Of a stretch of DNA of 64,000 nt, positions 579 through 28,700 are shown piece after piece. A model generated the notes under the pieces. The model had not been told where the DNA came from. It ran no database searches and was given only the letters and a program-made list of their open reading frames with translations. The stretch is from a virus: positions 1 through 64,000 of the IMG/VR virus record IMGVR_UViG_3300028388_002747, one strand, 5' to 3'. Both the position numbers and the translations under genes were made by a program. How positions within the stretch are numbered: position 1 is the stretch's first letter; the number at the start of each line of letters is the position of its first letter.

Positions 579-598
579 TTAATTTAAATTTTATAATC

Positions 599-1714: not shown

Positions 1715-1742
1715 TACTACTAGGATTAAACAAACAATAACC

Positions 1743-1789
1743 TAAGCCAGAGGTGATGAGAGGAATCTCTTTCCTCTGGCTTATTTTTT
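1743..1789 (+). terminator. Strong rho-independent terminator
   Basis: An 11-bp perfect stem (1743-1753 with 1773-1783) is topped by a second 4-bp GAGA/TCTC stem with a GGAA loop and followed by six T (1784-1789). It closes the 371-aa structural gene and rules out the in-frame start at 1753 for the next gene. Confidence 0.85.
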
Positions 1790-1800
1790 ATAGACATATC

Positions 1801-2355
1801 ATGGCTTTCATATTAGATTTTTTAATAACTCCAACATATAGCACTAAAACTATAGGTATCACTGATACTTCAACTTATCCAAATGATCCCCCAGAAGTTA
1901 CAGGTGCTTCATTGGAAGTTAGTATTCCAGGATTTGATACTGTTATTGTTCCATTTGTTCCAACAGAACTTAACCTACTTAATTCTACAATCCTGGGAAT
2001 TACAACAGAAGGTGAAGACCCATTACCAGATGGTATATATGTATTTAGATACTCTGTAGATCCTTCTACAATTAATTTTGTAGAAAAAACTATAATGAGA
2101 GTGGATCAATTACAAGAAAAATTTGATGCTGCTTTTATGAAGTTAGATATGATGGATGCTAATTCTAAGTTAAAGAAACAACAGAAAGTTAGTCTGGACA
2201 CTATCTATTACTTCATCCAAGGAGCAATTGCTGCTGCTAATAACTGTGCAACAGATACTGCTGTAAGGTTGTATAAAAAAGCAGATAAATTATTGTATGA
2301 TTTCACTGAAAGAGGAGAATGTTGTGGAGTAACATTTCCTAATAACTTTTATTAA
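1801..2355 (+). CDS. Conserved phage structural protein of unknown role
   Basis: I place the start at ATG 1801 (184 aa), because the longer frame from 1753 would begin inside the terminator hairpin. The N-terminal half looks like a beta-sandwich with many Thr/Pro/Val residues and the motif LPDGIYVFRYSV. The C-terminal half is helical, with a Lys-rich segment near residue 120 and Cys residues at the end (GECCG). Proteins of this build sit next to Cys-rich small genes in Bacteroidota phages, and that is also the case here: the 32-aa zinc-ribbon-like gene and the Cys-rich 218-aa gene follow. It is likely a virion or assembly protein. Enzymatic motifs are absent. Confidence 0.55.
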   Translation: MAFILDFLITPTYSTKTIGITDTSTYPNDPPEVTGASLEVSIPGFDTVIVPFVPTELNLLNSTILGITTEGEDPLPDGIYVFRYSVDPSTINFVEKTIMRVDQLQEKFDAAFMKLDMMDANSKLKKQQKVSLDTIYYFIQGAIAAANNCATDTAVRLYKKADKLLYDFTERGECCGVTFPNNFY

Positions 2356-2366
2356 TAAAAATAATT

Positions 2367-2465
2367 ATGGCAACTTGTAAGAACTGTGGTACAAAAGTAG
2401 GGTGTAGCTGTAAACTTAAAAATGGTTTATGTTCCTACTGTGCTAATAAAGAAAAAGAACAATAA
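2367..2465 (+). CDS. 32-aa six-cysteine zinc-ribbon-like microprotein
   Basis: ATG at 2367 follows the upstream stop by 11 bases, and the TAA at 2463 lies 2 bases before the ATG of the next gene, so it fits tightly into the operon. The peptide has Cys at positions 4, 7, 13, 15, 22 and 25 (CxxC, CxC, CxxC), a spacing suited to one or two zinc sites or to disulfides, with a charged tail (KEKEQ). It is too short for standard gene finders. I recall similar tiny CxNCG-type proteins beside structural genes of Bacteroidota phages, but no function is known to me. The conserved position suggests a structural or assembly cofactor role. Confidence 0.65.
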   Translation: MATCKNCGTKVGCSCKLKNGLCSYCANKEKEQ

Positions 2466-2467
2466 TC

Positions 2468-3124
2468 ATGTTAAGTGTAAAATTAACAAGCTGTAGAGAT
2501 TGTGCTCAGATATGTAAACTTATTGATAGCATTAATTGTCAATTGGCAAAAATGGCTAATAATTTGTATCTTAACATCGCGTATATGTTAGACAAACCTG
2601 TAGAAGCATGTACAATGTCTACATTATTACATTATAAAAGAATACTAACGTATAAAAGCTGTAATGCAGATTGGGCTTCAGATTATAGTGTAACAGATAT
2701 TGCTAGTAGAGTGAATGCTTTAACAGTGGGATGTAAGTGTTGTGATGAACAAAGTAGTGGAGAGTTAACAACCACTACTACTACTACTACAGCTGCACCA
2801 ACAACTACAACAACTACTACAGCTTTAACTTTAACAGCCTTTTTAGGTACAGCAACTACTGCTTCTAATTGTGTTTGGCCAAACTTTTTTGAAGAAGCAA
2901 CAACAACATATTACCATGATGGTTTAAATCCAACACCAGCTGTAGGAGATACTGTTTATGTAGATTCTGAAGGAACCATTCCTTTAGTAACAAGTGAATT
3001 ACCTGGATCTCCATTAGCAGAGGGAATACCACAAGCTCAAGGGCCTTATGTAGGTACTGTGGAAAGTGGTTCATTTGGTACAGACCTTGAAGGAGTAGTA
3101 CAAGTACCAGGTGACTGTAGATAA
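2468..3124 (+). CDS. Cys-rich protein with poly-Thr linker and C-terminal surface module
   Basis: 218 aa in three parts. Residues 1-95 are helical and cysteine-rich (CRDC, CK, NCQ, SCN, CKCC) and probably anchor the protein in the virion. Residues about 101-118 are a mucin-like linker of Thr runs around AAP. The rest, beginning at the Cys encoded at 2870, is a small all-beta module with 'PAVGDTVYVDSEGT' and a final Cys. The same module type recurs in four other places in this window. The gene starts 2 bases after the microprotein stop. It is probably a decoration or adsorption protein exposed on the particle; the receptor, if any, is unknown. Confidence 0.6.
   Translation: MLSVKLTSCRDCAQICKLIDSINCQLAKMANNLYLNIAYMLDKPVEACTMSTLLHYKRILTYKSCNADWASDYSVTDIASRVNALTVGCKCCDEQSSGELTTTTTTTTAAPTTTTTTTALTLTAFLGTATTASNCVWPNFFEEATTTYYHDGLNPTPAVGDTVYVDSEGTIPLVTSELPGSPLAEGIPQAQGPYVGTVESGSFGTDLEGVVQVPGDCR
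2768..2821 (+). repeat. Poly-Thr (ACN) tract with AAP break
   Basis: Eight Thr codons, Ala-Ala-Pro, seven Thr codons. It is the linker between the Cys-rich domain and the Cys module. Confidence 0.9.
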
Positions 3125-3152
3125 TAATAATAATAAAATAAATTAAAATAAA

Positions 3153-4310
3153 ATGAGTCAACAACCTTGTTCAAATTGCTACTCTAATTGTGTAGAAATC
3201 ACTTCAGATAAATGTGTAAAATACACAGGAGTAGATATAGAAGTGCTAGGCATACAAAATGGTGATAGTATTAATTATGTCACCTCTGCTATAGCTGGGT
3301 TCTTAACTTCTGTACTGGATGGATCTGGTATTAAATATGAACTTGAGCCCGAAAATTTATGTACAATAATCTCAGATAGTTTTGTAGACTGTACAGATAT
3401 AACACAAAAAGATATTTCAAACGCTCTAGCAGCAGCTATTTGTGCTATTGATACAAGGGTTACGGCTCTTGAAAACTACAATACTGCTTTAGATGCAGAT
3501 TATACAATTCCATGTGCAGAAATTGCTGTCACTGGAAATGAAGGAACCCGTGCTGTATTACAAGCAGTAGTTAATCAACTTTGTACTGTTACAACTGATT
3601 TAGATGCATTAGAGTTAAATGTAGCTACAAACTATGTTTTAATAGCTGATATTGATCAATACATTGAAAACTATATTACTAATAACTCAGGAGGTGCTAC
3701 AGCACAAAGAGATAAAATGGTTCCATTTACAGTGGTAGAATACTATGGCCCTCTTACAGTGTTTGATGCTTCTGGTGCTGGATTAGATGATGTAGATGGT
3801 GTAGATTGGTCACAAATTTATTTATGTAATGGCGATAATGGTACTCCAGATAAAAGAGGTAGAATTGCTGTAGGTACTACATCCGGAATGGGTGGTGGTG
3901 CTTTCCCTTCAGCTACAGATCCTTTGATTAGTGGTAACCCTACATATAACTTGTATACTACTACAGGAACAAACACTGTAACACTACAGACATCACAAAT
4001 TCCTGCTCACTCTCATAATATTACTATAGACCCTGCTGGGGAACACTCACATTTCTGTTTTGCAGATGTTAGTGATAATGAAACTATTAGTTCTACATTA
4101 GCTACAGCTCGTAGATTTAGAGATGGAGATTTTTCAGAAAATTATTCTTTAAGAGCTACAACAGGAAATGTACAAGATGTTGGCCCAACTAATACTGAAG
4201 CTGATCATACGCATAACGCTACTGCTACTAGTTCAGGAGGTGGTGGAAGTCATAATAATATTCCTCCTGTTTTAGCTTGTCACTATATAATGTATATACC
4301 AACAGTATAA
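3153..4310 (+). CDS. Collar-type tail fibre / receptor-binding protein
   Basis: 385 aa. The first 55 residues carry CSNC and the 'CVKYTG' core shared with three other proteins here, so they likely form a common virion-attachment domain. Residues about 60-180 are helical or trimeric-looking. From about residue 215 a tail-collar domain appears: 'LCNGDNGTPDKRGR', then Gly-rich text and repeated HxH pairs (HSHN, HSHF, HTHN) before a C-terminal 'NNIPPVLACHYIMY'. In T4 gp12-like tips such HxH pairs bind a metal ion that locks the trimer, so this is probably a receptor-binding fibre. Its TAA overlaps the ATG of the next gene (TAATG), which suggests coupled translation. Confidence 0.75.
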   Translation: MSQQPCSNCYSNCVEITSDKCVKYTGVDIEVLGIQNGDSINYVTSAIAGFLTSVLDGSGIKYELEPENLCTIISDSFVDCTDITQKDISNALAAAICAIDTRVTALENYNTALDADYTIPCAEIAVTGNEGTRAVLQAVVNQLCTVTTDLDALELNVATNYVLIADIDQYIENYITNNSGGATAQRDKMVPFTVVEYYGPLTVFDASGAGLDDVDGVDWSQIYLCNGDNGTPDKRGRIAVGTTSGMGGGAFPSATDPLISGNPTYNLYTTTGTNTVTLQTSQIPAHSHNITIDPAGEHSHFCFADVSDNETISSTLATARRFRDGDFSENYSLRATTGNVQDVGPTNTEADHTHNATATSSGGGGSHNNIPPVLACHYIMYIPTV

Positions 4311-4559: not shown

Positions 4560-5885
4560 ATGTATGCATATATTACCATATCAAATGTAGGAGCTGATGC
4601 TGGGCCTTTTGATTTATATTCAGATGTTGATGGTTATACATCCGCTTTTGAAACAAACATACCAAAAGCGTTATTAGAAGCAGGATATGCTACAAGCTTA
4701 GTACCTGCTGGAACTACAATTATAAAAATTCAGAGTGTAAATAGTGAATGTAATAATTTTGTAAATGTAGGTGTACTTCCTCTTGAATACTACTTTACTC
4801 CTAATGATGGTTCAAGTTATGTTTTGGACTTTGTAAACTCTGGTACTTATGGTTATGCTTATGGATATTTTAATGGATATTATAATGGTAGCTCATTAGT
4901 CCCAGGGAACCATGTTGTAAAATTAAATTCTGATAGAAGTGTAGATACAAGTTTTGATATTGATGAAGGCCCTGAGTTTCACACTGTATTCCTTGGAGCA
5001 TCTATAACAGAACTACCTGATTTGTCAATTATATTTGGTGGTTTCTATCTTACTTTTAATGGTGAAACTGTTAATAGAATATTGAAACTTTTACCTGATG
5101 GATCAAGAGATCCTAATTTTGACTCAGGCACAGGATTTAACAACTTTGTAACGAACGTACAAGTAGATACTTCAGGAAGATTTTATGTATTAGGTTTATT
5201 TAATGCTTATGATGGTTCATCTGTTCCAAGAGGTATGGTTCGTTTATTTGCTGATGGTTCATTAGATACAACATATAATAGTGGTGGTGTTGGTTTTAAT
5301 AACACTTCTATTTTTGGGATAGTTAATCCAGATAATTCTATTATTGTATCAGGGTATTTTACTATTTATAATGGTAGTGGTGTTAGTACAGGAATTGTAA
5401 AATTAGATGAAAATGGAGCAGTTTCTCCTGATTTTAATGGTGGAACTGGTTTTAATGTTGTTAATGGACAGCCTGTATCAATCACACAGATAACCGGAGA
5501 GAGCTCTTTTTACGCTGCTGGATACTTTACTCAATACAATGGAAATCCTTACCCATACATTGTTAAATTAACTCAAACAGGGGCTGTAGATCCTTCTTTA
5601 GATGCTGTAGGTACAGGTTTTGATGCTCCTGTATTCATAATTAAAAATATTTGGGGAGACAAATTATGGTGTTATGGTAGTTTTACATCTTATAATGGTG
5701 TACCTTCCCCTAATTATATTGTATTAAATTCTGATGGGTCAGTTTTCTGGGCTGCACCAGAATCTTATTATAATGTATATGTTATCGGTAATGATTTATT
5801 TGGTATGGATTTTACAACAAATCTCAATGAATTAAGGTTTACATTTGATCCAACATACACAACCACAACAACAACAACAGTATAA
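4560..5885 (+). CDS. Delta-60-repeat beta-propeller surface protein ending in a poly-Thr tag
   Basis: 441 aa. Residues 1-68 form the 'GPF' domain (VGADAGPFDLYSD, then a Cys-Asn end), also found at the start of the next gene and of the gene at 15759. Residues about 75-425 hold several repeats of the form 'GxFxxYNG...xLxxDGSxDxxFN...GF', matching the delta-60 repeat of Bacteroidota secreted and adhesin-like proteins, which fold as propeller blades. The last eight residues are seven Thr and Val. It probably displays a propeller on the virion for glycan or surface binding. The stop overlaps the next ATG (TAATG). Confidence 0.65.
   Translation: MYAYITISNVGADAGPFDLYSDVDGYTSAFETNIPKALLEAGYATSLVPAGTTIIKIQSVNSECNNFVNVGVLPLEYYFTPNDGSSYVLDFVNSGTYGYAYGYFNGYYNGSSLVPGNHVVKLNSDRSVDTSFDIDEGPEFHTVFLGASITELPDLSIIFGGFYLTFNGETVNRILKLLPDGSRDPNFDSGTGFNNFVTNVQVDTSGRFYVLGLFNAYDGSSVPRGMVRLFADGSLDTTYNSGGVGFNNTSIFGIVNPDNSIIVSGYFTIYNGSGVSTGIVKLDENGAVSPDFNGGTGFNVVNGQPVSITQITGESSFYAAGYFTQYNGNPYPYIVKLTQTGAVDPSLDAVGTGFDAPVFIIKNIWGDKLWCYGSFTSYNGVPSPNYIVLNSDGSVFWAAPESYYNVYVIGNDLFGMDFTTNLNELRFTFDPTYTTTTTTTV
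5859..5882 (+). repeat. Poly-Thr tract before Val-stop
   Basis: Seven ACA/ACC codons and GTA before TAA, ending the delta-60 protein. Confidence 0.85.
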
Positions 5886-6964
5886 TGGCAGATATAATTA
5901 TAACATTAACGACTGTAGGTGCTGATCAAGGCCCATTATTTGATCTCTACTCAGATGTAGATGGTTATTCTAGTGCTTTTGAAGTAGGAGTAGCTCAAGC
6001 TGCTTTAGAAAGTGGTTACACTACAGCTCTAGCTCCAGATGGCACATCTATTGTAAGAGTCTGTGGTCAAGGTGTTAAATGCTCTAATTGTGTAGATATT
6101 CCAATTATATATACAACTACAACTACTACAACTCTCACTCCTGTAGGATGTGAAGAAACAGCAAATTCTGGAGGTGTAGGTGTGACAGAATACTTCATCC
6201 AGCTTGAAACTGATGGAGGAGAATTAGTATTAGACTTTGATGCTTATGGTGTTCCGGATAAATTAGAAATCCTTCACAATGGAATTAAAGTAGCTACATC
6301 AGGTATGACAGTAGCTAACTCAGGCCCATTCGATGATATTTATGGAGATCCAACAGTACCAACACAACCACAAACATTAACAGTTGATCAATTTATAGGT
6401 ACACAAAAAGCTGTACCACCAACTAGAGAAGCAGAAATATTTGCTGATTTAGGAAAAACTTTTATATCTAATGGACAACAACTAATTTGGTTTAGCTACA
6501 CAGCTACAGATTATTTAGATGATCCATTTGCTATTGTAAGAATTACAGGCCCAAGCGGTACAGCTTGGCAGTTAACTAGATTGTGTGATGAAAACACAAC
6601 TACAACAACTACAACTAGCACTAGTAGTACAACTACTACTACCACTACGGCAGCCCCTACTACTACAACTACTACAACATTATCTGGATTAATAGCTTCA
6701 ACTATTAATGATCATCCTAACACTAATTTAATTCAAGGGTGTGATATTTTAACAGCAAATGTTAATGTTAATGTATGGGTTGATACTCAATCTGGAAATA
6801 ACATTCCAAGTATAGGTGATGTGATTTATCAAAATCCTTCAGGAACAGCTGTATATCCTGGAAATGGAGACTATTATAAATTTGAACTTGGTGGTGGAAG
6901 TTATTATGGTGCTAGGGTTAGTGCTGCAGGTGTGATATTAGCACCAATATCTATTTGTGCATAA
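5885..6964 (+). CDS. Modular decoration protein: GPF domain, poly-Thr linkers, beta domain, Cys module
   Basis: 359 aa built entirely of recurring parts. Residues 1-76 are the GPF domain (VGADQGPLFDLYSDVDGY). A first Thr tract follows, then a beta-rich domain at about residues 84-236 with an acidic 'LDFDAYGVPDKLEILHNG' motif that resembles a lectin-like or jelly-roll sandwich. A 28-codon Thr/Ser tract with one AAP break comes next. A C-terminal module (from 6740) starts at a Cys, has 'PSIGDVIY' and ends 'ISICA'. It is probably exposed on the virion surface; the ligand is unknown. A terminator follows 45 bases downstream and closes the left structural operon. Confidence 0.6.
   Translation: MADIIITLTTVGADQGPLFDLYSDVDGYSSAFEVGVAQAALESGYTTALAPDGTSIVRVCGQGVKCSNCVDIPIIYTTTTTTTLTPVGCEETANSGGVGVTEYFIQLETDGGELVLDFDAYGVPDKLEILHNGIKVATSGMTVANSGPFDDIYGDPTVPTQPQTLTVDQFIGTQKAVPPTREAEIFADLGKTFISNGQQLIWFSYTATDYLDDPFAIVRITGPSGTAWQLTRLCDENTTTTTTTSTSSTTTTTTTAAPTTTTTTTLSGLIASTINDHPNTNLIQGCDILTANVNVNVWVDTQSGNNIPSIGDVIYQNPSGTAVYPGNGDYYKFELGGGSYYGARVSAAGVILAPISICA
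6113..6133 (+). repeat. Poly-Thr tract
   Basis: Seven Thr codons between the GPF domain and the beta domain. Confidence 0.85.
6596..6679 (+). repeat. Long Thr/Ser/AAP tract (28 codons)
   Basis: The longest tract in the window, with one Ala-Ala-Pro break as at 2768. It precedes the Cys module at 6740. Confidence 0.9.
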
Positions 6965-8319: not shown

Positions 8320-9054
8320 ATGAGCACATTAAGACAAATGGTATCAAGTGTAAGGAGTACACATCGTATTCTTTCCACGGATTCTATGATTACAGATAGA
8401 GCTATTGCTAGAGAAATCAAGCAGGCTTCTCTTTTGCTTATAAAGAGAGAAACTAATCTTAGAAAGCTATGGGGTACAGATACTCTGTTTACTACAATAC
8501 CTTGTTTGGAAATGATTGAAGTTCCAATTACAGATTGTTGTGATTATGCAGAAAACCTATATATAGCTCGAAGTAAACATAAGTTACCTAGAATAGCAGA
8601 AGGAAACTACAACTATGTTATTCAAGGAGTTTATTCAATCAATGTGCTTGGTGGAACTGGTAAGAAATTAAAAGAAATTAGTATTAATAGATACTTAAAT
8701 CTTTTAAAACTTCCCACTAAGAAAAACGAAGAATATTTTTGGATTAATAATGACTATTTATATGTAAGTTCTAGTTTTGTAGAAAAGGTTAGAATTTCAG
8801 CTTTATTTACTGAAGGATATGTATCTAATGACTTAATGTATCCTCAAGATTGTGAATGTTCTGGAGATAATTATACTATAGAAGAATATTGTATGAATCC
8901 TCTTGATAAACAATTTTACTTACCGGCCTACTTAGAACAACAAGTTATGGATATTGTAAGTAAAGGGTTGAGAGAAACGTATTTCCAAATTCAGCAAGAT
9001 GTTAGTAATGAAGGTATAGATGGGCAACAAATCAACTCAACACCTACAGATTAA
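8320..9054 (+). CDS. Conserved tail ring/connector protein
   Basis: 244 aa, starting 2 bases after the metallophosphoesterase stop. Features include an N-terminal helical segment (TLRQMVSSVRSTHR), 'LIKRETNLRKLW', 'IPCLEMIEVPI', 'YVIQGVYSIN' and 'YFWINNDYLYV'. I recognise the pattern from a conserved structural gene of crAss-like and other Bacteroidota phages, placed just before the small basic gene and the tail-tubular gene, as here. Its job is most likely a ring of the neck between portal and nozzle. The C-terminal helix (YLEQQVMDIVSKGL) is typical of connector proteins. The stop overlaps the next ATG (TAATG). Confidence 0.65.
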   Translation: MSTLRQMVSSVRSTHRILSTDSMITDRAIAREIKQASLLLIKRETNLRKLWGTDTLFTTIPCLEMIEVPITDCCDYAENLYIARSKHKLPRIAEGNYNYVIQGVYSINVLGGTGKKLKEISINRYLNLLKLPTKKNEEYFWINNDYLYVSSSFVEKVRISALFTEGYVSNDLMYPQDCECSGDNYTIEEYCMNPLDKQFYLPAYLEQQVMDIVSKGLRETYFQIQQDVSNEGIDGQQINSTPTD

Positions 9055-9536: not shown

Positions 9537-10532
9537 ATGGCATATTACTATAAATATAATTTCATTTCTCCAGAACCAATCTACGCGATTGTAAAGGAAG
9601 AGTTGAAATCTTACTTTGATACTGGAGCAGTTGATGACTTATTATTTCCTGTATACACTAATAAGTGTCTGGAAAAATTAGGTAGAGCTACTCATGCTAT
9701 TGTGCCTGTAGTTTTATATGTAGAAGATTTTAAAGCAAGACTTCCTGATAATTTTTATGCTGTTAGAGAAGCATGGTACTGCCATTGGATAGGTGGGGGT
9801 ACTTACAAAGATAATTCTGCTTTTTATACACAAACATCAGATTTAAACACAATCCAGGTTAGTCCTCTTACGATTGGTGGTGATCCTACATGCAATAACC
9901 CTATTTGTGAAGATCCAAATTGTGAAGGAGAATGTTTAAATCAAGTAGTGCAGGCAGTTTATAAAACTGTAAATGAATTACCAAGAAGTTCATTCAAAAG
10001 AAGTTTCTTATTGAAGCCAGGAAATATTTCCATGGAGCCAGAATGCTCATATAACTATAATGAGGTGGGAGCCTTATATGGAAACATTTCTACAGTAGAC
10101 CTTCCTGTACCACAATCAGCAGATTATGATTCTTTTGATATACACGATAACCAACTTGTTACAACTTTTAGAGAAGGTGTAGTAGAGCTTGTAATGTATG
10201 CTTCTGATTTTGATAATCTAGGAAATCAAATGATTCCAGATAATTATAGAATCAGAGAATTTATTGAAGCTTTTATTAAATATAAAGTATTTGAAACTTT
10301 GACGAATCAGACTAATGATGAAACATTTAACCAATTACAGCAAAAAATGATGTTGTATAAACAAATGGCAGGTGAGGCATACATTATGGCTGAAAGTGAA
10401 ATTAAAAAACAAGATGTTTATACAAAGCAGAGAAGAATAAGAAAAAATCTTAAAAGATTCGATAAATACGAACTACCTTCTAGCAGAAGGGGAAGAAGTG
10501 GAAGAAATTTCAGAAGAAATAGATACTATTAA
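9537..10532 (+). CDS. Tail tubular / ring protein
   Basis: 331 aa. The N-terminus (EPIYAIVKEELKSYFDTG) and C-terminus ('NYRIREFIEAFIKYKVFETL' followed by a helix and a basic tail) match the tail-tubular type found in podovirus-like Bacteroidota phages, where it forms a ring below the portal. The middle contains a Cys-rich insert (CNNPICEDPNCEGEC), perhaps a metal-binding or disulfide loop. The last 30 residues are Arg/Lys-rich, which may contact DNA in the channel. It lies 8 bases upstream of the very large nozzle gene, the usual order in crAss-like genomes. Confidence 0.65.
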   Translation: MAYYYKYNFISPEPIYAIVKEELKSYFDTGAVDDLLFPVYTNKCLEKLGRATHAIVPVVLYVEDFKARLPDNFYAVREAWYCHWIGGGTYKDNSAFYTQTSDLNTIQVSPLTIGGDPTCNNPICEDPNCEGECLNQVVQAVYKTVNELPRSSFKRSFLLKPGNISMEPECSYNYNEVGALYGNISTVDLPVPQSADYDSFDIHDNQLVTTFREGVVELVMYASDFDNLGNQMIPDNYRIREFIEAFIKYKVFETLTNQTNDETFNQLQQKMMLYKQMAGEAYIMAESEIKKQDVYTKQRRIRKNLKRFDKYELPSSRRGRSGRNFRRNRYY

Positions 10533-10540
10533 TAATAACC

Positions 10541-13500
10541 ATGGCAGAAGAGTCTAATAAAAGTAACGTTAAACAAGAATTTAATGCTGCTACAACCGGT
10601 TTAAATTTAGATAACTCTCAAAATAATATAAAAAAGGGGGTACTTTCCTATGCTCTAAATGCAGCTATGGAAAACTTTGATGCTAATTCTGTACAATATC
10701 AAAATGAACCTGGTAACACTCCATGTTTTGATTTTCCTGAAGGATATGTTTTAGTTGGTAGATATTACATTCCAGAGAAGAGTAAGATTTTGTTTTGGTT
10801 AACTAATCCTGATGGAGGAGATGAGATTGGTTACATGGAAAATAATGACTGTGTTTATAAAACTCTTGTAAATGCAGATTGTTTAAATTTTGATATTAAC
10901 AGACCTATACTTGGTATTGTACATAGAATACAAAGAAACGGAGAAGTAGAGGTTTATTGGTCAGATAATAATGGAAGACGTTACTTAAATATAGATGATA
11001 TTCCTTATCTACCACTTTCTACCTCTGATATTTGTGATCCGGAAGATAGCTCTGAGTTAGACTGTAATGCTTTATTGCTTCAGCCAGATATAACAACACC
11101 TTATACAAGTGTCACAGATGTTATCTCTGGAGGAGAGATTACCAGTGGTACATACCAATTTACAGTACAATATGCAGATGCTAATGGAAATCCATATACA
11201 TCTTACTACAATGTAACTAACCCTTTACCTATTGCAGATACTGATACAGCAACAGTGAATTTTGATATTCCTGTAGGTAAAAGTATTGTTGTTAACGTAG
11301 ATAATTTAGATCCCCTTGGTCAATATAAATGGTTTAATCTGGCCGTAATTAAAACTGTTAATAATATCTCTACCCCTGAGTTAGTTGGTACATATTTTAT
11401 AGATGATACTTTTAAACAGATAACTTATACCGGCCAGATTCAAACTAATATTCAATTATCTATATCAGATATATTTGAAAAATTTGCTTTCTATGAGAAT
11501 GCTGATTATGTAACTGCTGTACAAGATGTGTTAGTATGGCAAGGTGTTACACTTCCTGAGCGTGTAAGCTATCAAAAAATAGCAAACCAAATAACTTTAC
11601 AATGGCAGACTTACAGATTACCTCCTTCTGATAGAGGCTATGCTAATGAAGTAAATGCAGCTAATCTTAGAAGTTATTTAAGAGATGAAGTCTATGCATT
11701 TGAAATAGCATTTCTATTAAAAGGAAAAGGAGAAACAGATGCTTTTCATATCCCTGGAAGATCTATAGGTGCTTTAGAAATAGCTCAACCAGATATACAA
11801 GTTGATAATCCAGATTATATAGGAGATGGCGTAAACCCTTCTCCATATTGGTATGTATATAATACTGCTACAGTGGTAGGTACTTCTTCTGAATACACAC
11901 CTGAAGATGATTATAAAGGGCCATATCAATTTGGTGATTTTGCTTATTGGGAATCTACAGAAGAATATCCTTGTGATGAAGATGTATGGGGAGATTTAGC
12001 AGGAGAAAAAATCAGACACCATAAATTTCCAGATGTAGCTATAAGTCCTATTATTGAAGGAACAGTTTTTACAAGTCCTCAAGATTTACAAACTGAAGAT
12101 GTAGCTATTTTTCCAATAGGAGTTAAAATAGATAGTGCAGAAATAGAGAGACTTATAAGAGATTCAGAAGATCTCACTGATGCACAAAAAGCAGATATTG
12201 TAGGATATAAAATTACCAGAGCAGATAGAGGTATAAATAAATCTATCATTGCAAAAGGTATGCTAAGAAACGTTGGGAAATATGAAAGAGATGATCAAGA
12301 ATTCTATTATCCAAATTATCCTTACAATGATTTAAATCAGGATCCATTTATTAATAGTTTAAATAATGCTCTTTTACAACAATGTGAACCATTCACTGTA
12401 GAAGTTTTTAATTTAACAGACACTTGTGAAGATGGGCCTTGTTTAAAAGTTGAATATGTAAACTGTACATCAGCAAGAACTGATACAACAGAATATTATG
12501 CAACAGGTACATATACTCTTTGTTCTATTGGTAGACCGAGGTTCATTTCTCCAGGAACATTTGATAAGTTGATTTTTAGAAACAACCCAAATTTACCTTT
12601 ACCTGCTAATGATGCAGATGGTAATATTACATATGCAAATCATGATATATATGATGTAGGTAAAAGTAGAAATAGAGGATGTAGAATAGAGTGGGAAGAT
12701 GCTACACAAGGTACAACGAGTGAATGGTTTAATGGTGTAGGTGATGGAGATCAAGACCCTTGGAGAGTAAGAGTAGTTCCAGGAACTGTTCCAGTGAAAA
12801 CAGATGGAGCAGGAGCAGAACTTATTCGTTTTGTTGATACTGTTGAAGCAGAGGATTGTTTTGAAGAAGATAATCCTATCACTATAAATTCAGAAGATTA
12901 TAATAGACAAATATTTAACTCTCCTGAAACTTCATTTGGTCAGCCATTTTTAGGTAACATTCTAAAATTAGAGAGTGTTATGTTTGGAGGTGGTAAAGGT
13001 CATTTTGTAGAAGTTAAAGATAATGCTAAGTATAGACTTATTACAAAAGAAGCTCAAGAAGATGCTTTAGCAACTGCAGAAAGAGTAGCTGCCCAAACAC
13101 AATCATTCAATCTTGAAGCTATGTTTGCTGTGTATAATGCTCAGCTCACTATATTTAGAAATGACATCACTAAACGTAATTTTGCAAGAAGTTTCAACTC
13201 TATTGCTAGCTATAACTACACTGTACCGGTTCCTAATGACCAAGGTGTAAAACAGAGAAATCTTGATATTAAACGCTACCTAATACCAGAAGTATTAAAT
13301 GTTGGTGAAGATGATATAAACATTAATAACTTTCAAAGAGAAACATCTGTTTATTTAAGATGCACAGAAACATTACCTGTTCCTCATGAAAGTCCTGAAA
13401 TGCTTTCAACAGGCTTAGTGGAAGAGAGTAGATTTACTATTAGTGAAAAAGGTAATTGTTCAAAACCAGAAAAAGAAGAACCTTTATCTGTAGTATCTTA

Positions 13501-15757
13501 TTATGGGTCATTAAAAAATCAGTTTGTAAATCAATATGGACAGATTTATTCTTATGAAAGTATAGATACAGGATTTACTAAAATATTTGATAATGAAGAA
13601 CTTACAGAGGATATAATATGGGGAGGTGATACTTTTATAGGTAGATTTGCTTATAAAACTAAAGTACCATTCTTTATTGATAATCGCGTAAACTTCCCTG
13701 ATGATAGTGATATATTCTATGATGAAATAGGAAATATAGGATTCCCTAGATATTGGCATTCTTCAAGGTCAATTCTTGAAACATGGCAAGGTAGTTTTGA
13801 TTCTGATTTAGTATTAACTAACTTTTTAAGTTATAAAGCAACTAATTTTGATTGTCCTAACTCTCAAGAGTTGACACCAGAATCTGCAGATCCAGAAACA
13901 AATCCTAATAGAACATTCTATGATGGATTCTTTTACATGTTTGCATATGGAATTCCTAGTTTCTATTGTGAAAGTTCATATAATCTTGATTTAAGAACAG
14001 CCTTTAATAATAAAGAAGGAGATTTTTGGCCACATGTTTCTTCAGGAATACCTGACAACTGGGTGCAAGAAACTAATGTTCCTATTGCTCAAGATAATAC
14101 ATACAATTATAATGTAACATTTTCTAAACAAAATAAAGAAAGTGTAATAAGTAACTTACCAGCAGACTGGGATCCAGATGATGAAATTACTTATTACCCA
14201 TTTAGAGCTGTATACTCTGATATTTTAAATTCAGGAACAAGTATAAACAATTGGTTGGTTTATAGACCAGCTAGTTTGTTTGATTTTCCACAGAACTTTG
14301 GAAACTTAACAGCTTTAGACAGTTTAAAAGACACAGCAATACTAGCTAGATTTGAGAATAAAAGTTTGCTGTACAACAATTTATTAGTGCTGGATACATC
14401 TAATCCACAAGCAGCTTTTTTAGGAAATCCTAATTTCTTTTCTGCCCCTCCAATAGATTATGCAGAAACAGATCAAGGATATATGGGAGCACAAAATAAG
14501 ATGTTATTAAAAACACCTTATGGTGCTGTTAGTGTAGATGCTAAACGTGGACATGTATTTTTAATTAATGGTCAACAAGCAGAAGATTTAACTCAATTTG
14601 GTTCCGGAATGCATAGATGGTTTACAGCACATTTACCATTTGAAATCTTAAACTATTTCCCTGGAATAAATACAGACAATCATTATAACGGGATTGGATT
14701 GCATGGTGTGTTTGATAGTAATTACGAAAGAGTAATTCTAACTAAAATAGACTATGTTCCTCTATCTGAAAAAATTAGATATGAAAATAATAAGTTTGTT
14801 ATTAATGAAAAAGGCTTTGATAAAGAAGTATTTTTAAATGACAGTGATTATTTTTGTAATGTATCATGGACAATATCCTTTAACTTTAATACAAAGAGTT
14901 GGATAAGTTTCCATAGTTATATACCTAATTGGTATGTAGGAGAAAGCAATTTCTTCTATTCTGGATTAAATAGTTGTCCAAATGATTTTGATGCATTAGT
15001 GGCAGTTGTGGATCAAACTATTCCATCTACCACTACAACTACTACATTACCATTAACCACTACAACAAGTACAACAGTGTTTATTAAAGATCCAGAGTGT
15101 GACTTTGATGCAGTTGCTGAAGTTCCAGATTGTGGTCTTGAAGGTGAAGGTGTGTTTGTAGATGCAGAACCAGTAGAACCATGTAGAAGACCAAGAACAG
15201 TGCAAACAGCATTCTTATTTACAGGATATAATTTAGTAACTCCTACAGCAATCGTAGATAGTACAGGAAGCTCAACAGATGCTTGTGCTCATGTAAGTGT
15301 GTTCTTAGCTTTCCAAGGTGATGAAACTAATAACTACACTCCAACAACTATTATTGCTGAAGCAATAGCATTTGAAGTAGGCAATAAAGTTTATGATGGA
15401 AATACAGGTACAGATTGTCAAGTAGTTCCTGATGGATGGTATTTCACTGGAGAAGGAGCTGAATTAGGACAAGTGTTTGAGGTTAATAGTGGGGATATAG
15501 TTAGTGTTGTTTCTTGTGGATTATCTGTTAGTACAACCACTACTACAACTACACCTAATCCTGGTATAATAAGTGTATGTTATCAATCAGATATTGCTGC
15601 TGGTGATCCATCATATCCACTAGGAGGTGTAATCAATTATATTGATGTAGATGGTAATCCTCAAACTTATACTAACTTCTATGCCCCTGATACAATTCAA
15701 TTAGAAGTATTAGATGTAACATCTACATTTGGTGTAACCCCATTAATATGTCCATAA
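10541..15757 (+). CDS. Large tail nozzle (muzzle/stabilization-type) protein, N-terminal part, with poly-Thr modules appended
   Basis: 1738 aa. Residues about 1-1490 look like one long beta-rich nozzle protein of the P22 gp10/T7 gp12 type that crAss-like phages place after the tail-tubular gene. 'GAQNKMLLKTPYGAVSVDAK' near residue 1315 and 'SWISFHSYIPNWYVG' near 1455 fit such proteins. After 'FYSGLNSC' the character changes: a poly-Thr linker, a Cys-bounded module (15284-15517), a second Thr tract and another Cys-bounded module (15578 to the end). The missing C-terminal part of the nozzle seems to be the next gene. It probably encloses the DNA exit channel and carries displayed domains. Family assignment is by pattern and position. 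Confidence 0.6.
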   Translation: MAEESNKSNVKQEFNAATTGLNLDNSQNNIKKGVLSYALNAAMENFDANSVQYQNEPGNTPCFDFPEGYVLVGRYYIPEKSKILFWLTNPDGGDEIGYMENNDCVYKTLVNADCLNFDINRPILGIVHRIQRNGEVEVYWSDNNGRRYLNIDDIPYLPLSTSDICDPEDSSELDCNALLLQPDITTPYTSVTDVISGGEITSGTYQFTVQYADANGNPYTSYYNVTNPLPIADTDTATVNFDIPVGKSIVVNVDNLDPLGQYKWFNLAVIKTVNNISTPELVGTYFIDDTFKQITYTGQIQTNIQLSISDIFEKFAFYENADYVTAVQDVLVWQGVTLPERVSYQKIANQITLQWQTYRLPPSDRGYANEVNAANLRSYLRDEVYAFEIAFLLKGKGETDAFHIPGRSIGALEIAQPDIQVDNPDYIGDGVNPSPYWYVYNTATVVGTSSEYTPEDDYKGPYQFGDFAYWESTEEYPCDEDVWGDLAGEKIRHHKFPDVAISPIIEGTVFTSPQDLQTEDVAIFPIGVKIDSAEIERLIRDSEDLTDAQKADIVGYKITRADRGINKSIIAKGMLRNVGKYERDDQEFYYPNYPYNDLNQDPFINSLNNALLQQCEPFTVEVFNLTDTCEDGPCLKVEYVNCTSARTDTTEYYATGTYTLCSIGRPRFISPGTFDKLIFRNNPNLPLPANDADGNITYANHDIYDVGKSRNRGCRIEWEDATQGTTSEWFNGVGDGDQDPWRVRVVPGTVPVKTDGAGAELIRFVDTVEAEDCFEEDNPITINSEDYNRQIFNSPETSFGQPFLGNILKLESVMFGGGKGHFVEVKDNAKYRLITKEAQEDALATAERVAAQTQSFNLEAMFAVYNAQLTIFRNDITKRNFARSFNSIASYNYTVPVPNDQGVKQRNLDIKRYLIPEVLNVGEDDININNFQRETSVYLRCTETLPVPHESPEMLSTGLVEESRFTISEKGNCSKPEKEEPLSVVSYYGSLKNQFVNQYGQIYSYESIDTGFTKIFDNEELTEDIIWGGDTFIGRFAYKTKVPFFIDNRVNFPDDSDIFYDEIGNIGFPRYWHSSRSILETWQGSFDSDLVLTNFLSYKATNFDCPNSQELTPESADPETNPNRTFYDGFFYMFAYGIPSFYCESSYNLDLRTAFNNKEGDFWPHVSSGIPDNWVQETNVPIAQDNTYNYNVTFSKQNKESVISNLPADWDPDDEITYYPFRAVYSDILNSGTSINNWLVYRPASLFDFPQNFGNLTALDSLKDTAILARFENKSLLYNNLLVLDTSNPQAAFLGNPNFFSAPPIDYAETDQGYMGAQNKMLLKTPYGAVSVDAKRGHVFLINGQQAEDLTQFGSGMHRWFTAHLPFEILNYFPGINTDNHYNGIGLHGVFDSNYERVILTKIDYVPLSEKIRYENNKFVINEKGFDKEVFLNDSDYFCNVSWTISFNFNTKSWISFHSYIPNWYVGESNFFYSGLNSCPNDFDALVAVVDQTIPSTTTTTTLPLTTTTSTTVFIKDPECDFDAVAEVPDCGLEGEGVFVDAEPVEPCRRPRTVQTAFLFTGYNLVTPTAIVDSTGSSTDACAHVSVFLAFQGDETNNYTPTTIIAEAIAFEVGNKVYDGNTGTDCQVVPDGWYFTGEGAELGQVFEVNSGDIVSVVSCGLSVSTTTTTTTPNPGIISVCYQSDIAAGDPSYPLGGVINYIDVDGNPQTYTNFYAPDTIQLEVLDVTSTFGVTPLICP
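15029..15079 (+). repeat. Poly-Thr tract inside the nozzle gene
   Basis: Six Thr codons, Leu-Pro-Leu, seven Thr/Ser codons, Val. It marks the point where nozzle-like sequence stops. Confidence 0.85.
15533..15553 (+). repeat. Second poly-Thr tract in the nozzle gene
   Basis: Seven Thr codons between the two Cys modules of the nozzle gene. Confidence 0.85.
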
Positions 15758-15758
15758 T

Positions 15759-16625
15759 ATGCCACAAACAGTAACCATAAGACTAACAAATGCTGGCCCA
15801 AGATTAGGCCCATTCACTATTAAAGATAACTTTGATAACATACTTGCTACAGATGTTTCCAGAGAAGACTTAAAAGATGGTATCGTATACTCTGTTGCGG
15901 ATGAAGTTACTGTTATTACTATATGTTCTACTGGTAGAGTGAAGCTTTGTAAAAACTTTTCTATACTACAATTTAATGTAATAGAATACATGGCTGCTGA
16001 TTTTACTACTAGAAACACTGCTTGTGCATGGACACATTTAAAAGATCCTACAATCTATAACACTTACTATGGAGTAGTAGAACCATATGTTATAGAGTAT
16101 CCTTTTGCTTATGAATTTCAAGATGAAATACTACGTAATGTAAAAGATCATACTAAAGTGTGGAAATACATACCTTTAACTAACACAGTGTTAAAAGATT
16201 ATGCAAAGTATGAATTAGATGATGCTTGGTTCAATAAAGCTATTTTATATAACAACCAACAAAATAGTGGCATATTAGAACTTATGCCTAAAACACGGAA
16301 TAATTTATCTGCATACATGTCCTACCCACAATACAATTCAGAAAGCAAAGGAATTAAATGGACTAAGAGTGATAATTTCTATCAATACAATACATTCTGG
16401 AATGTTACAGTAGATCAAACACAACCACAGTTTATTGAAGATTGTGAGAGCCTTTCTATTGATAAGCAGATCAATCAAGACAATATGGACTATAGTGTAA
16501 GATCAAGAAAAAAAGAACCTCTAAGAGCTAAAGAGTTAAAAATTAGACACATTTTAGACAATAGGGGAGACATAAAGCTTGTGAGTCAATTCATTGTGGC
16601 TCCTGCTCAAATCAGTTACAAGTGA
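15759..16625 (+). CDS. Apparent C-terminal part of the nozzle protein preceded by a GPF domain
   Basis: 288 aa starting 1 base after the preceding stop. Residues 1-72 are the GPF domain (NAGPRLGPFTIKD ... CKNFSI), seen also at 4560 and 5885. From residue 86 the text (CAWTHLKDPTIYNTYYG, EPYVIEYPF, FNKAILYNNQQNSG, FYQYNTFWNV, NKI-like 'IDKQINQDNMDY') resembles the distal region of crAss-like nozzle proteins and does not look like a separate fibre. This suggests the nozzle is encoded as two polypeptides that assemble together. It ends in TGA, unusual here. Alternatively it is an independent tail protein; an alignment would decide. Confidence 0.55.
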   Translation: MPQTVTIRLTNAGPRLGPFTIKDNFDNILATDVSREDLKDGIVYSVADEVTVITICSTGRVKLCKNFSILQFNVIEYMAADFTTRNTACAWTHLKDPTIYNTYYGVVEPYVIEYPFAYEFQDEILRNVKDHTKVWKYIPLTNTVLKDYAKYELDDAWFNKAILYNNQQNSGILELMPKTRNNLSAYMSYPQYNSESKGIKWTKSDNFYQYNTFWNVTVDQTQPQFIEDCESLSIDKQINQDNMDYSVRSRKKEPLRAKELKIRHILDNRGDIKLVSQFIVAPAQISYK

Positions 16626-22711: not shown

Positions 22712-25700
22712 ATGGGTAAGCAACAAAATAAACCAGGTATTCCAGTAGTTAAACCTATTTCGGATGCAGCATATCAACCTACACCTGACTTAGCACAACC
22801 AAATTTTAATGTAGATGGTAGTCCAAGAAGTTTGGATGATTTGTGGAACGCAGGTATAGCTAGAAATAGAACTGACTATATAGAGCAACTACCTTTAAAA
22901 GATATGTATATAGGTGGAAGGTATAACAATACTATTCCAGGAACAGATTATGAGTCTACTCATGGTGCTCAACAGTCTGGTTTAGAACAAGCTTTTAATG
23001 GTGTTGTAAAAGGAGTTAATTTAGCAGGAACAACTGTTCTTGGTGGTTTCGGAACTTTATATGGTGTTGGTAAAGCTGTATTACCTGGAGGTAAGCTTTC
23101 TGATATATGGGATAATGAAATAATGCAGAGTTTAGATGAGTGGAATAAAAAAGTAGATGAAGAGTGGTTACCTAATTATTATTCTGCTAAAGAAACTAAT
23201 TCTAAATGGTATGAAACTGATAACTGGTTTACTACTAATTTTCTTTTTGATAAGTTAATTAAAAATAGTGGATTTGCTGTTGGTGCTATGATTAGTGGTA
23301 ACATAGCTAATGCTGGTTTAATGAGAACTGGTACAGCTATAGCTAGTCAAGCTAGTAAATTAGAAAAACTAGCAAAAGCTAAAAAAGGATTTGAATCTTT
23401 TACTCCTTTATTAAGAAACACTTCAAGAGCTTTTAGTCAAGGTAAAAATATTGAAGCAGCCACTATACTTGAAAAAGAAATAACAAGCATGGCTGATTTG
23501 TCTTTAAGAGCAAAATCTCTTTCAGAATTAGCTACACAAACAAATAAGTTTGTAAACCTATCTAATAACTTCCGTAGATCTGCTGTAGCTTTATATTCTT
23601 CTGCAGGAGAAGCAAACTTTGAAGCATTACAAAGTAGTAATGAATATAGAGAAAGTTTGATACAAGCTTATATTGATGCAAATGGAGTACACCCTACAGG
23701 AGAAGAATTAGCTGAAATAGATGGTAAAGTAAACAGATTAGGTGCAACAGCTTTTATAGGTAATATGGCTCTTTTAGGTGTTACAGAATGGTTTCAATTA
23801 CCATACTTAATGGGTAGTACATACAGAACTACTAAGTCTGCAGCAAACAGATTTGTAAGAGAAACTGGTGAAATCACATTTGATGAAGCAGGAAAAGCTA
23901 TGGCTAAGCCTAAAAATTGGGCAGAAAAAAGTTTTGGTAGACTTTATAAAGGCTCAAGATATATTATAGATCCAAAAGAAGCATTTCAAGAAATGGGTCA
24001 GTTTGCTTTACAAGTAGGTAGTGAAAACTATTATGATAAAGCCTATGAAACTGGAGAAGCTGATTGGTGGGTAGATGGTGTATTACATGGTTTCTTTGGA
24101 AGAGATAATGAAACAGGAGAAGGTGTTGGTGCTTTTGTATCTAAAGAAGGTATAGAAGGTGGTATTATGGGTATGCTTACCGGTGGATTTATGCAAGGTA
24201 GACAAAAATATGTTGCTGATCGTACTAAAGCTACAAATACACAAAACTTTATTGAAGAGTTAAATAACTCTCCTACATTTAAAGATGCTTACAAACAAAA
24301 ACTTAGAGATGCTAATAGAGGTATTGCTCTAGCAGAATTACAAGAAGAAGCTATTAAACAAGGGAATGAGCTTGAAGCTAAAGATATTAGACATGATATG
24401 ATGTTTAACTACATGTACAATAAAATTAAGTACGGTAGAAAAGATCTTATTGCTGCAGATTTTGATATGATGATTAGCAAAGGTTCTACTACAGATGGAT
24501 TAAATGAATTAAAAGAAGAAGGGTTTGCTAATATAGATGATACGATTACTACTTTTACAGAAAGAGCTAATCGTATGAAAGAGTTCATGAATAAGATTGA
24601 ACTTATGGCAGGTAATATAAATCAAGTTTATGCTGGTCAAGTAGTAACAGATTCAGAAGGAAATACTAAACCTGCTTATTCAGAAGCTGTTATAGAAAAG
24701 ATGACTTATGCTGCTTCTAAAATAGCTGATTATGATGTTCGTATTCCTCAATTAGAAGCTAATTTAGGCAATAAAAATATTGTAAATACACAGAACATAT
24801 TAGATAATCTTGATAATGCTAAAGCATTAGATGAAGCTCGTATAGAAGAAGAAATTAAGATTGAGTCTGCTTTAGAAAATAGACAGGTTAGAAAAGATGA
24901 AGCATTAAAACTTGCAAAAGAGTTGGATGATTATGTAGAATTACAAGAAAGAAAAAAGTATTTCTACAATGAATACAATGATATGATTAGCAACCCTGCT
25001 AAGTATGATGTTCCAGAAGCTGATATACAAGTACCAACAGAACAAACACCTATCACTGTAACAACTAAGAATGGTGATAGAGAAGTTATGCTTGGTAAAG
25101 AGTACAGATTAGGTACTGTTGTTAAATATGATAAAAATAATAAACAAGTATTTAGAGCTCCTACTCTTACAATTATAGAACAAAAAGAAGATGGTACATT
25201 AGTAGTACAAGATACTAAAGGTAAAGTAAGTGAAGTTACTCCAGAACAATTAGAAGATTATGATTTAATTGATCCAGAGAAAACAACTAAAACTGAAAAC
25301 TTTTTCTTGGCTCACTGGAATGATGTATTTATACATCAAGGTATCAAACATACTAAAGGTAAAAGAAAAGGCAAACCTATTGAAGGAAGATTACAACTTA
25401 CTAAAGATCACAAGGGTTTAAATTTTGTTTTTATAAATGATCAAGGAAAGAAAAAAGTTGTTCCATTAGAAAACTCTCACTTTATAGCAGACAAAGCTAA
25501 AGGGTTTACTATGCCTAGAGTTAGAAAAGTGGGGGAAGTAACTCCTGCACAACAAACAGCTACAAATGAATTGATTTCAGAATCAGGATTTACAGAAGAT
25601 GTAGCTCCTCATATTGATAAAAGAAATAAGATTTTAGATGAGTTATTTGATCAATTATCTGATAAACAAAAGAAAGCAGACAAACTTATTGCTGCTAAGA

Positions 25701-28700
25701 AAAAACAGATTGAAAAAAATCAAAAAGAACTCAATAAGCTAAAAGGAAAAATTAGAGAAGCTAAAGCAGATAAACGTGTTAAAGGTACGTTTCGTTTTAA
25801 AACTGAAGCTCGTAAAGCATTACAGAAAGCTATGCAGCTTTCTAATATGCAAAGACAACTTGAAAATGAAATTGAACAATTAGAAGATCAAATTTCTGAT
25901 ATAGATGTTGCTCAACAAACTATCTTAAACATAGTTGACAACTTAGAAAAGTATAGTGAAAAACCTACTGAGTTTTTAGAAGAATTACAGTTTGATCTTC
26001 TTAATATAGAAGAAGCAAAAGAAAAAACTGTAAAGCAAATAGATGCTATTAAAGATTTAATATCCAGTACAAAAGCTGCTATAAAATCTGCTGTAAAATA
26101 TTTAGAAAATCTGATTAATAAATTTGAAGCTAAGAATCCAGATATACCTCTTTTTATAGGTAAAAGATTTATGGATAATGCTGATAATCTATTACAAGGA
26201 GAAATACAAAATCTTTTAGATACTATTGAGTTGACAGAAGAACAAGTAATTGTTCCTGATGAAGCTAGAGTAGAGCAATTAGAAGAGCACTACGAAATGA
26301 TGATGGAAGATATGGTTGTTCTTGATAGACAGCATAAAGCAATGCAAGTTGTTATTGAAAAATTTGAAGAAGTAGCTGCTAATTGGAAATTACAAAAAGT
26401 AGAAGAAGCTGTTTTTGGTGATAATGAAGCTTTAGCTCAAGAGCTTATTGATACTCAAGAAGATAGTGGTACACCTATTTCTTCTGCTGAAGAAAATCAA
26501 AACTATGAACCAGAAGATAAAAAAGAACAATACAATGTAGTCTTGTCAACTAAACCATTCTCTGGAAGAATAAACCCTTTAACTGAAGAATGGGAAGAAC
26601 CTAGAGAACATCATAAACGTGCTAATAGATTTGGTTTTAGATTTGAAAGCTTAGATAACAAAGAGGACATTCAAGGAGTTGTTTTAAATCAAAAAACAGA
26701 AGCTGGTATTGCTGACGGTCTTATGGAACATTTAGCTGGTGATAGTGGTGTAGATCCTTCAGACACTTTAGCTTTTTTAATGGTTGTAAATACTCGCGAA
26801 GGTCTTAGACCTGTAGATGAGTTTGGTAACCCTATAATGGATGGTAAAGATGTTCTTAATAGAGCAGTGTATCAAGTGTTTCCAAAAGAAGATAAAGATG
26901 GTAAACTTACTGCATACTATAAAGGGAAAAAACAAAGTATGTTTAGAAACACTGCTGATAGTGTTGATGCTCTTACAGAAAAATATATAGCTTGGAGAGA
27001 AAAAGAAGTTAATAAAGAAGAAAGATCTCCGGCAGAAGCTGTTAAAGTAAGTTTTGGTGTTCCTACTTATGCTACATATTTAGATGAGAATGGAGAAGAG
27101 CAAAGAGATTATGCTGTAAGAACCAATGTAAAAGATGCAGGTTTAGCAGATGAAAATAGATTAGGAAATGAAGATGTGCTTTTGGTAGGTACAACCAACG
27201 ACACTATTACTCAAGGTACTACATCATTTACTAATGCATTAGGTAGAGTATTTTTAAGATCTGATAATGGTTTAACTAGACTAGATAATCGTAAACATAC
27301 TCCAGAAGAAGCTGAAGTTATTTTTGATGTACTATTTAGATTAGCTCAAATAGCTCAAGATAAAAAATCGTTAAAAGGAGAAGAAGTAACCAGGTTAACT
27401 AACTGGTTAAAGTCTGTAGTATATTGGGGCCATGTAAAAGATCAAGATGGTAAAGTTAAGAAAAAAGGATACAACAGTATTTGGTTTGATTGGGTAGTAA
27501 ATGATGCTACAAATAAAAAAGAACCTAGATTATTCTTTTCTAAAAGTGAACAAAGTGTAGCTTTAACTCCAACATCTTTGAATGGAAACAAAAACTCAAT
27601 ACTACATATTTTAGAACAAATGTATCTGAATGTAGATGCTAAAAGAGTTAATGAAGCTTCATTTAATGCTGCATATATTCAAATTACTGGTATAGATTCA
27701 AAAGGACAGCCTATTACAAAGAAATGGCCTAATTATCAGAGTTACTTATTATCAGATAAATCTCCTGATAGTAAAGGACAGTTAACACAAAATAGAACAA
27801 CTCCTGTTCCTCTAGCTACAAACCTTTCTCCTATTACACCTACTAGTCCTGTAAACAGAAATGGTATATATTTTACAAGAGTAGGAGGTATGGAAGAAAT
27901 GTATGTTGAACCAGAAAGTAAAGCTGCACCTCCTACTGCTACTCCAGAAGCAACAGAAACTGCAGAGAAAGAAGAAAAATCTGTAGAGGAAGTACTAGAA
28001 ACTACAGAATCTGAAAAACAAGGATATACATTAGATGGTGTAGAAAATAATTTATTCACTTTAAAGAATAAAGACACTGTATTTTTTAAAATGGATTTAG
28101 CAAAAGCTAAAGAAGTTTTTGAAGAACTTGGAGTTAATTTAAAAGATAGTATATCAAAAATAAAATTTGTTCAACAATTATTAGCTAGACAAATACTTGA
28201 TGTACAATTAACTACTGAAATTATAAAAGCAAGAGCAAAAGAAAAAAATATTCCTGAGTTACAAGCTGCAATTTCTATAGGAGTAGATATTTTTAATGAT
28301 CTCTCTATTAATTTCTCTGGAATAACTAATACCAAACCTGTAGAGTATGTTCCTAAAAAACCAAACATGGATGGCAAAGAAAGCAATGTTATTGATGTTG
28401 ATGGTTTAGGAAAAGTTGTATACACTTTTGATATGGCAAAAGCTCAGAAACTTCTTGAGGCAGATACTTTATCTGATCCTGATAAGAGAGCTGAGTTCAT
28501 ACTTAAATTATTTCAAGAAGGCATTTTAAATCCTACTGCTGATACAAAAGTTGTAACTAAAGTAGCTGAAAATACTGGTAAAACTCCATTACAAGTAGTA
28601 TTAAAAGCTGTTAAAACAATATTTAAACAAGTAGAGCCACATTTTGTTCTTGAAGAACGACCTACAGATGAAACTATTGAAGCTCCTAAAAAACCAGAAA

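Follow-up and report, generated by a model that had tools for sequence, protein, structure and literature searches.

The question of one protein or two

Do two adjacent genes of a virus encode two proteins, or one protein made in two pieces? The question is raised by IMG/VR virus record IMGVR_UViG_3300028388_002747, a 69,514-base contig of which positions 1 to 64,000 (64,000 nucleotides) are hereafter called the window. On the plus strand of the window, open reading frame 1 (ORF1, 10541-15757, 1738 residues) is followed directly by ORF2 (15759-16625, 288 residues), and an earlier reading of the sequence alone had proposed that an inserted block split a nozzle gene at this point. We find by homology that ORF1 encodes the front, and ORF2 the back, of a single crAss-type muzzle/nozzle protein. 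As we discuss below, several lines of evidence favor the reading that the muzzle is made as two chains in this clade, with a display tail at the break, to which we assign a probability of about 0.82.

ORF1 and ORF2 match the two ends of single-chain muzzle proteins

First, phrog_15100, a profile of a single-chain virion protein with 1783 positions, aligned with both genes, its positions 11-552 with residues 19-572 of ORF1 and its positions 1589-1781 with residues 89-286 of ORF2. Second, tblastn located both parts next to each other in Leptolyngbya phage Lbo-JY46, phage csAssE-Sib, and one gut contig; the parts form a single coding sequence in JY46 and in csAssE-Sib, where it is annotated 'Muzzle protein', and one open ORF runs across both in MT837925. 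Third, the flanks of the break are joined by few residues in aligned single chains (JY46, FETGIQKNSRSSVWSHN; csAssE-Sib, FQTGINFPASDEEGGLWSH; phi4:1, FQTGVKDKGLWSH), and 0-13 residues (0-39 nucleotides) separate the same two flanks in single-chain homologues. The JY46, csAssE-Sib, and phi4:1 muzzles are thus homologous to the window genes on both sides of the break but have a few-residue loop, without a Thr tail or GPF domain, at the site. Both flanks matched and the block was missing from the homologues, as the sequence-only reading had anticipated; moreover, ORF2 from about residue 89 corresponds to the nozzle C-terminus rather than to an unrelated protein, and ORF1 alone stops short of the end of the single-chain family, so it has no full-length match. 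With JY46 (L001 in our numbering of relatives), a crAss-type muzzle occurs in a phage whose recorded host is the cyanobacterium Leptolyngbya, a host record that may not be right.

The two genes also occupy the muzzle slot of phage crAss001. The order in the window is ring protein 2 (CrAss_Ring_2, 8320-9054, plus strand; PF25702, 4.5e-17), a weak HU/IHF-type match, ring protein 1 (CrAss_Ring_1, 9537-10532, plus strand; PF24228, 1.2e-7), which immediately precedes the muzzle, and then ORF1 and ORF2. In crAss001 the order is gp40 (R2), the HU/IHF-like gp42, gp43 (R1), the muzzle gp44, and gp45 (ring protein names as in PMC10172136), matching as ring 2, IHF-like protein, ring 1, muzzle, and next cargo gene. 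Queried directly by sequence, with each ORF and with two alignments, the PDB yielded no match, and gp44 was reached only through structure comparison and profile alignment (profile match probability 96%); no relatives came up in a scan that used only the C-terminus of JY46. The hexameric gp44 (PDB 7QOK/7QOL; PMC10172136) resembles the window muzzle in its C-terminal fold and its R2-IHF-R1-muzzle neighbourhood but is one chain of 1371 residues. Fold, two-part sequence homology, and gene order all place ORF1 and ORF2 with the crAss-type muzzles and podovirus nozzles, and the departure is from the usual single polypeptide, a common trait that homology does not demand, with two genes here and three in 25 relatives. 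Muzzle length variation has been reported in the IG2 and crass domains, the insertion at gp44 318-1021 (PMC10172136); the break described here maps near gp44 residues 1232-1236, in the later part of the propeller and beyond that insertion.

Architecture of the break

The ORF1 core, comprising the ~1480 N-terminal muzzle/nozzle residues (10541-14980), was defined by matches to phrog_37948 and phrog_15100 and by homology to the JY46, csAssE-Sib, and phi4:1 proteins. All features of the break lie on the plus strand. Nozzle-like sequence extends to FYSGLNSC, which ends at 14977 with Cys1479 (14975-14977), just before the tail block. The tail, in which the Thr tracts were read from the sequence, consists of Thr tract 1 (PSTTTTTTLPLTTTTSTTV, 15023-15079), module 1 (15080-15529; a short Cys part followed by a CRRPRTVQTAF...SCG module, whose family occurs in the muzzle tails of 37 genomes), Thr tract 2 (15530-15556), and a terminal module 2 (15557-15754), the sole relative of which was found in L006. 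At the break itself (15755-15761), the TAA stop (15755-15757) and the ATG start (15759-15761) form the junction TAATATG, and the frame of ORF2 differs from that of ORF1. ORF2 opens with a GPF domain (residues 1-80, about 15759-15998), which is conserved in split relatives, and nozzle sequence resumes with Cys89 (16023-16025) in CAWTHLKDP and continues as the nozzle C-terminal part (residues 89-288, 16023-16622). Both the ends of the nozzle-like sequence and the order of Thr tracts, Cys modules, stop, ATG, and GPF domain that the sequence-only reading had described were confirmed at these coordinates. Each muzzle part is present as one copy only in the window.

The split is old and shared by a clade

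A scan with ORF2 found relatives, labelled here with L-numbers, on 400 viral contigs. The best 80 of these 400 matched residues 1-286 or more, thus including the GPF domain, and all of these 80 had the ORF1 stop and the ORF2 ATG restart. Single-chain relatives came from a further scan, in which JY46 served as the first sequence, and members were classed as split or joined by profiles of three core pieces. Among distinct related sequences, 153 were split at this site (loop 1), all of them metagenomic, and 37 were joined, with none intermediate: loop 1 was either a join of 0-39 nucleotides or a split with at least 355 nucleotides between core pieces, and no in-frame insertion at loop 1 was seen in this classification. 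A scan of bacterial genomes found no relatives.

These relatives bear on two explanations that would dispense with a two-chain muzzle. The window is a single metagenomic record in which ORF2 is out of the frame of ORF1, as a sequencing or assembly error or a gene decaying in one phage would produce. However, 153 distinct sequences spread over many contigs have this arrangement, a Thr tract, stop, and start are present in every member checked, and both parts of ORF2 are under purifying selection, and we regard error or decay as having almost no chance of being correct. Programmed frameshifting, read-through, or RNA splicing could instead yield one continuous chain; stop and start are close together in TAATATG, and phage tail genes are known to use frameshifts. 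Against such a chain, the frame offsets of ORF2 relative to ORF1 were random (31/31/24 across the 86 relatives checked), the gap between the genes exceeded 40 nucleotides in 19 of these 86 and was usually filled by an extra GPF-headed gene, and ORF1 tails differed among near-identical phages while ORF2 kept its ATG and a constant length. The random offsets therefore exclude frameshifting as well as sequencing error, and a continuous chain by any of these routes is very improbable. No Rfam intron, frameshift element, or other RNA family matched within 8-20 kb, and neither the ORF1 tail nor ORF2 had any Pfam or NCBIfam match above threshold, to an intein domain or otherwise, although no intein-directed search was made.

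A tree built from 123 core sequences mapped the split to a single gain. Two single-chain members lie inside the split group: L115, which groups with L044/L081 at support 1.0, and L113, which groups with L072/L052/L077 at 0.965. By Fitch parsimony, loop 1 changed three times, or once without L113 and L115, and a 189-sequence tree gave the same result. L115 has roughly 73-82% DNA identity to the split L044 and L081, yet it is unbroken across loop 1 (SGLNDCDGFTSTQQSATSCMWRHL), as is L113 (YYSGKVGIGMWRHL). On this phylogeny, one gain was followed by two re-fusions, and the split has been reversed at least twice; it is therefore old, stable, and reversible. The proposal that an insertion made two genes from one was thus borne out as to the event itself, but that event is old and clade-wide rather than recent in this phage.

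Models place the break in a loop and suggest that ORF2 needs ORF1

In the AlphaFold2 model of window ORF2 alone, the predicted local distance difference test score (pLDDT) was 80-91 in the GPF domain and 33-67 in the muzzle part, compared with 76-96 for the equivalent part (461-645) of the single-chain L115 model, the two sets of scores coming from different alignments and proteins. The GPF domain is thus predicted to fold by itself and the muzzle part of ORF2 to depend on ORF1. Compared with the PDB, the L115 model was closest to chain 7qol_P, the muzzle of crAss001 (E 1.5e-10, probability 1.00), ahead of the nozzles of A4, SU10, VP1, T7, P22, and Sf6; a fold search with the weak model of ORF2 alone gave no match below 0.001, with crAss001 muzzle chains among the top six. 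In the L115 model, loop 1 (446-460) lies between strands 441-445 and 461-465, and a second loop (loop 2, 391-395) lies between strands 386-390 and 396-399; in profile alignment, these two loops fall at about gp44 1232-1236 and 1186-1190, respectively. The block is therefore predicted to fall in a loop between two adjacent beta-strands, in keeping with the surface-loop insertion suggested from the sequence.

Might ORF1 instead be a shortened nozzle that functions alone, and ORF2 a GPF-type fibre or adaptor recruited separately? GPF domains do head stand-alone fibre-like genes, as well as genes between ORF1 and ORF2, and a protein with a GPF head can thus evidently exist independently. However, the muzzle part of ORF2 is strongly constrained, with a ratio of nonsynonymous to synonymous substitution rates (dN/dS) of 0.11, its fold is predicted poorly alone and well in a fused relative, and it has been rejoined in frame twice (L113 and L115). 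We consider a separate role for ORF2 unlikely.

The ORF1 tail is a hypervariable array and the GPF head is constant

The block between the core end and the start of ORF2 measured 94-3691 nucleotides (median about 880). In the 86 split tails checked, the ORF1 tail was 27-805 residues long, and a Thr/Ser run, a stop, and a start were found in all 86. Pairs with 93-97% core identity had a median of 55% of the block in common, and L052 and L077, at 98.2% core identity, shared only 10%; the tails of L007 and L018 were reduced to empty Thr stubs. Of 175 tail modules, 68 were homologous to upstream Thr-rich, fibre-like genes, and a DUF5122 propeller occurred both in the window gene at 4560-5885 and in the muzzle tail of L021. 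By contrast, the GPF-to-core part of ORF2 was near-constant (258-279 nucleotides). Thus, by these comparisons, the ORF1 tail is the only variable part of the insertion and is rapidly exchanged. The sequence-only reading had taken the whole block as inserted; this holds for the ORF1 tail, but the GPF head is constant and was apparently borrowed from fibre-like genes.

A diversity-generating retroelement was considered as a source of the variation and rejected: no reverse transcriptase (RVT_1) match was found in the 69,514-base record, which is possibly incomplete, and whole modules vary rather than point positions. Thr runs directly before a stop also occur elsewhere in the window (TTTSTTTV, 1688-1714; TTTTTTTV, 5859-5885; TTTTTTTTV, 61307-61335; coordinates include the stop) and resemble empty module acceptor tails; the run ending at 1714 closes a gene (599-1714) in the head-gene region. 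The open-access literature searched, with partial coverage, held no description of poly-Thr module arrays or of a split muzzle.

Both parts of ORF2 are under purifying selection as judged by dN/dS, which was 0.29 for the GPF part. A profile of ORF2 heads matched upstream fibre-like genes at their N-termini, with E values as low as 1e-13 and a value of 0.001 for the window gene at 4560. It also matched the N-termini of free-standing GPF-Thr-module genes, which many relatives carry between ORF1 and ORF2; GPF had no match in the phage collection. Two fibre-like genes of the window, both on the plus strand, repeat the joint of the break, with a Thr tail, a stop, an overlapping ATG, and GPF: one of the proposed donor family (4560-5885; GPF, DUF5122 beta-propeller, and Thr tail) and a second (5885-6964; GPF, Thr tracts, and modules) whose start codon overlaps the stop codon that follows the Thr tail of the first. 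Because of the GPF-head homology and this shared joint, we infer that the insert derives from the GPF-headed, Thr-linked fibre-like gene family. The adjacent GPF-headed pair at 4560-6964 may encode paired adhesive fibres. The largest block seen, in L168 (7353-11045), holds three tandem free-standing GPF genes.

A second loop is split in some relatives

Loop 2, a beta-hairpin turn at 14795-14824 (plus strand) with flanking strands in the model, is unbroken in the window. In relatives it forms a series from a short turn, through an in-frame Thr linker (L007, L008, L015) and in-frame Thr with a module (L025), to a stop and restart with a Thr tail (L026, L057, L065, L091). Further scans brought the loop-2 splits to 25, every one also split at loop 1 and thus in three chains, and the loop-2 state changed seven times on the tree. 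The unsplit L062 and its split sister L065 have 84-93% DNA identity in the region of loop 2, and the loop-2 module of L091 is a FISUMP domain (TIGR02145, 1.8e-23; PF09603). The in-frame Thr linkers suggest a path to splitting. One of the 25 loop-2 breaks, in L249 (about position 4000), has no Thr tail, only two residues and a stop, and is more likely an error of assembly or sequencing than a true split. Unsplit loop-2 turns of L020, L055, L059, L061, and L075 contain a CC motif (for example, FYLEKPVDCCGAEKL) and may thereby provide an intra-turn or an inter-chain cysteine.

Cysteines covary across the breaks

The cysteines of SGxNxC in ORF1 and CxWxHL in ORF2, Cys1479 and Cys89 in the window, were both present in 134 of the 153 split sequences and both absent in 19; none had one alone. 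The pair is also absent from outgroup single chains. At loop 2, cysteines were present on both sides of the break in L065, L176, and L177 and on neither side in the other 22 split cases. From this both-or-neither pattern we propose an inter-chain disulfide between ORF1 and ORF2, which the loop-1 cysteines suggest as their simplest reading.

Shared ancestry, or an effect on metal binding or fold, might also explain the covariation; this would replace the disulfide step only and is compatible with the rest of our reading. The loop-1 pattern reflects just two changes on the tree, and further cysteines lie nearby (the second of a usual CC pair, and FCN). However, covariation is confined to one ORF1 position: the second cysteine of the CC pair breaks the pattern, being absent from the window and L006 and kept by most of the Cys-less clade. 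The both-or-neither state recurs at the separate loop 2, where the unsplit L062 has no cysteine, and tail disulfides have been reported in crAss001 (PMC10172136). We judge ancestry or metal and fold effects to be a serious possibility, at somewhat less than even odds.

A proposed model for a muzzle made in two chains

We propose that, in an ancestor, DNA encoding a Thr tract, module, stop, ATG, and GPF, as in the phage's own fibre genes, entered a short loop between neighbouring beta-strands of the C-terminal propeller region. ORF1 would have been left with a free, Thr-tethered tail, and ORF2 would open with a GPF domain followed by the remaining muzzle. The C-terminal fold would then be completed only when ORF2 packs onto ORF1 during tail assembly, and in most members a disulfide across the break probably substitutes for the lost peptide bond. 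The open-ended tail may gain, lose, and swap adhesive modules by recombination at Thr tracts; at the tail tip, the probable role of these modules is to bind structures on host or environmental surfaces. Splitting is probably favoured because a free C-terminus tolerates any change in length or content, whereas an in-frame loop insertion must re-enter the fold. The two-chain reading draws on the homology, split, clade-wide distribution, hypervariability, module sharing, and cysteine covariation established by sequence comparison.

Several points weigh against this reading. The loop-1 covariation comes down to those two tree changes, and 19 split members persist without the pair. L113 and L115 are one metagenomic contig each and may be mis-assembled, the only recognisable tail modules are DUF5122 propellers and the FISUMP domain, and the pLDDT contrast spans different proteins and alignments.

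Known systems offer partial parallels. Phage receptor-binding proteins exchange C-terminal modules and, like the muzzle, carry swappable C-terminal domains on a constant base; the muzzle site, however, lies in the middle of a core nozzle fold, and its C-terminus was created by breaking the gene. Mobile elements such as homing endonucleases split phage genes into adjacent pairs, and there too one ancestral gene becomes two whose products must assemble. At the muzzle break, by contrast, nothing was seen of a homing endonuclease, an intron, or an intein, and the insert is a variable display array that recurs at a second loop. Tentatively, the two loops may exemplify a general device in which hairpin turns of core virion proteins are cut open to give C-termini for interchangeable Thr-tethered adhesins, with a covarying Cys staple, GPF as a virion docking domain common to the muzzle and fibre-like genes, and one module pool serving several sites on the particle.

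A conserved crAss-like tail-gate protein can thus carry a break within its fold and yet persist throughout a large clade, and a plausible reason for the break is that it opens the tail tip to fast exchange of modules. The split, joined, re-fused, Cys-bearing, and Cys-less members are natural experiments on how broken proteins stay assembled, and on how phages can vary their contacts with the host while the ejection channel is left undisturbed. For annotation, they warn that the small gene after a muzzle gene can be part of the muzzle. Elsewhere in the window, a 4975-residue ORF (22712-37639) ends in a C-terminal NADAR domain (PF08719, 4e-12), the only Pfam match in that ORF.

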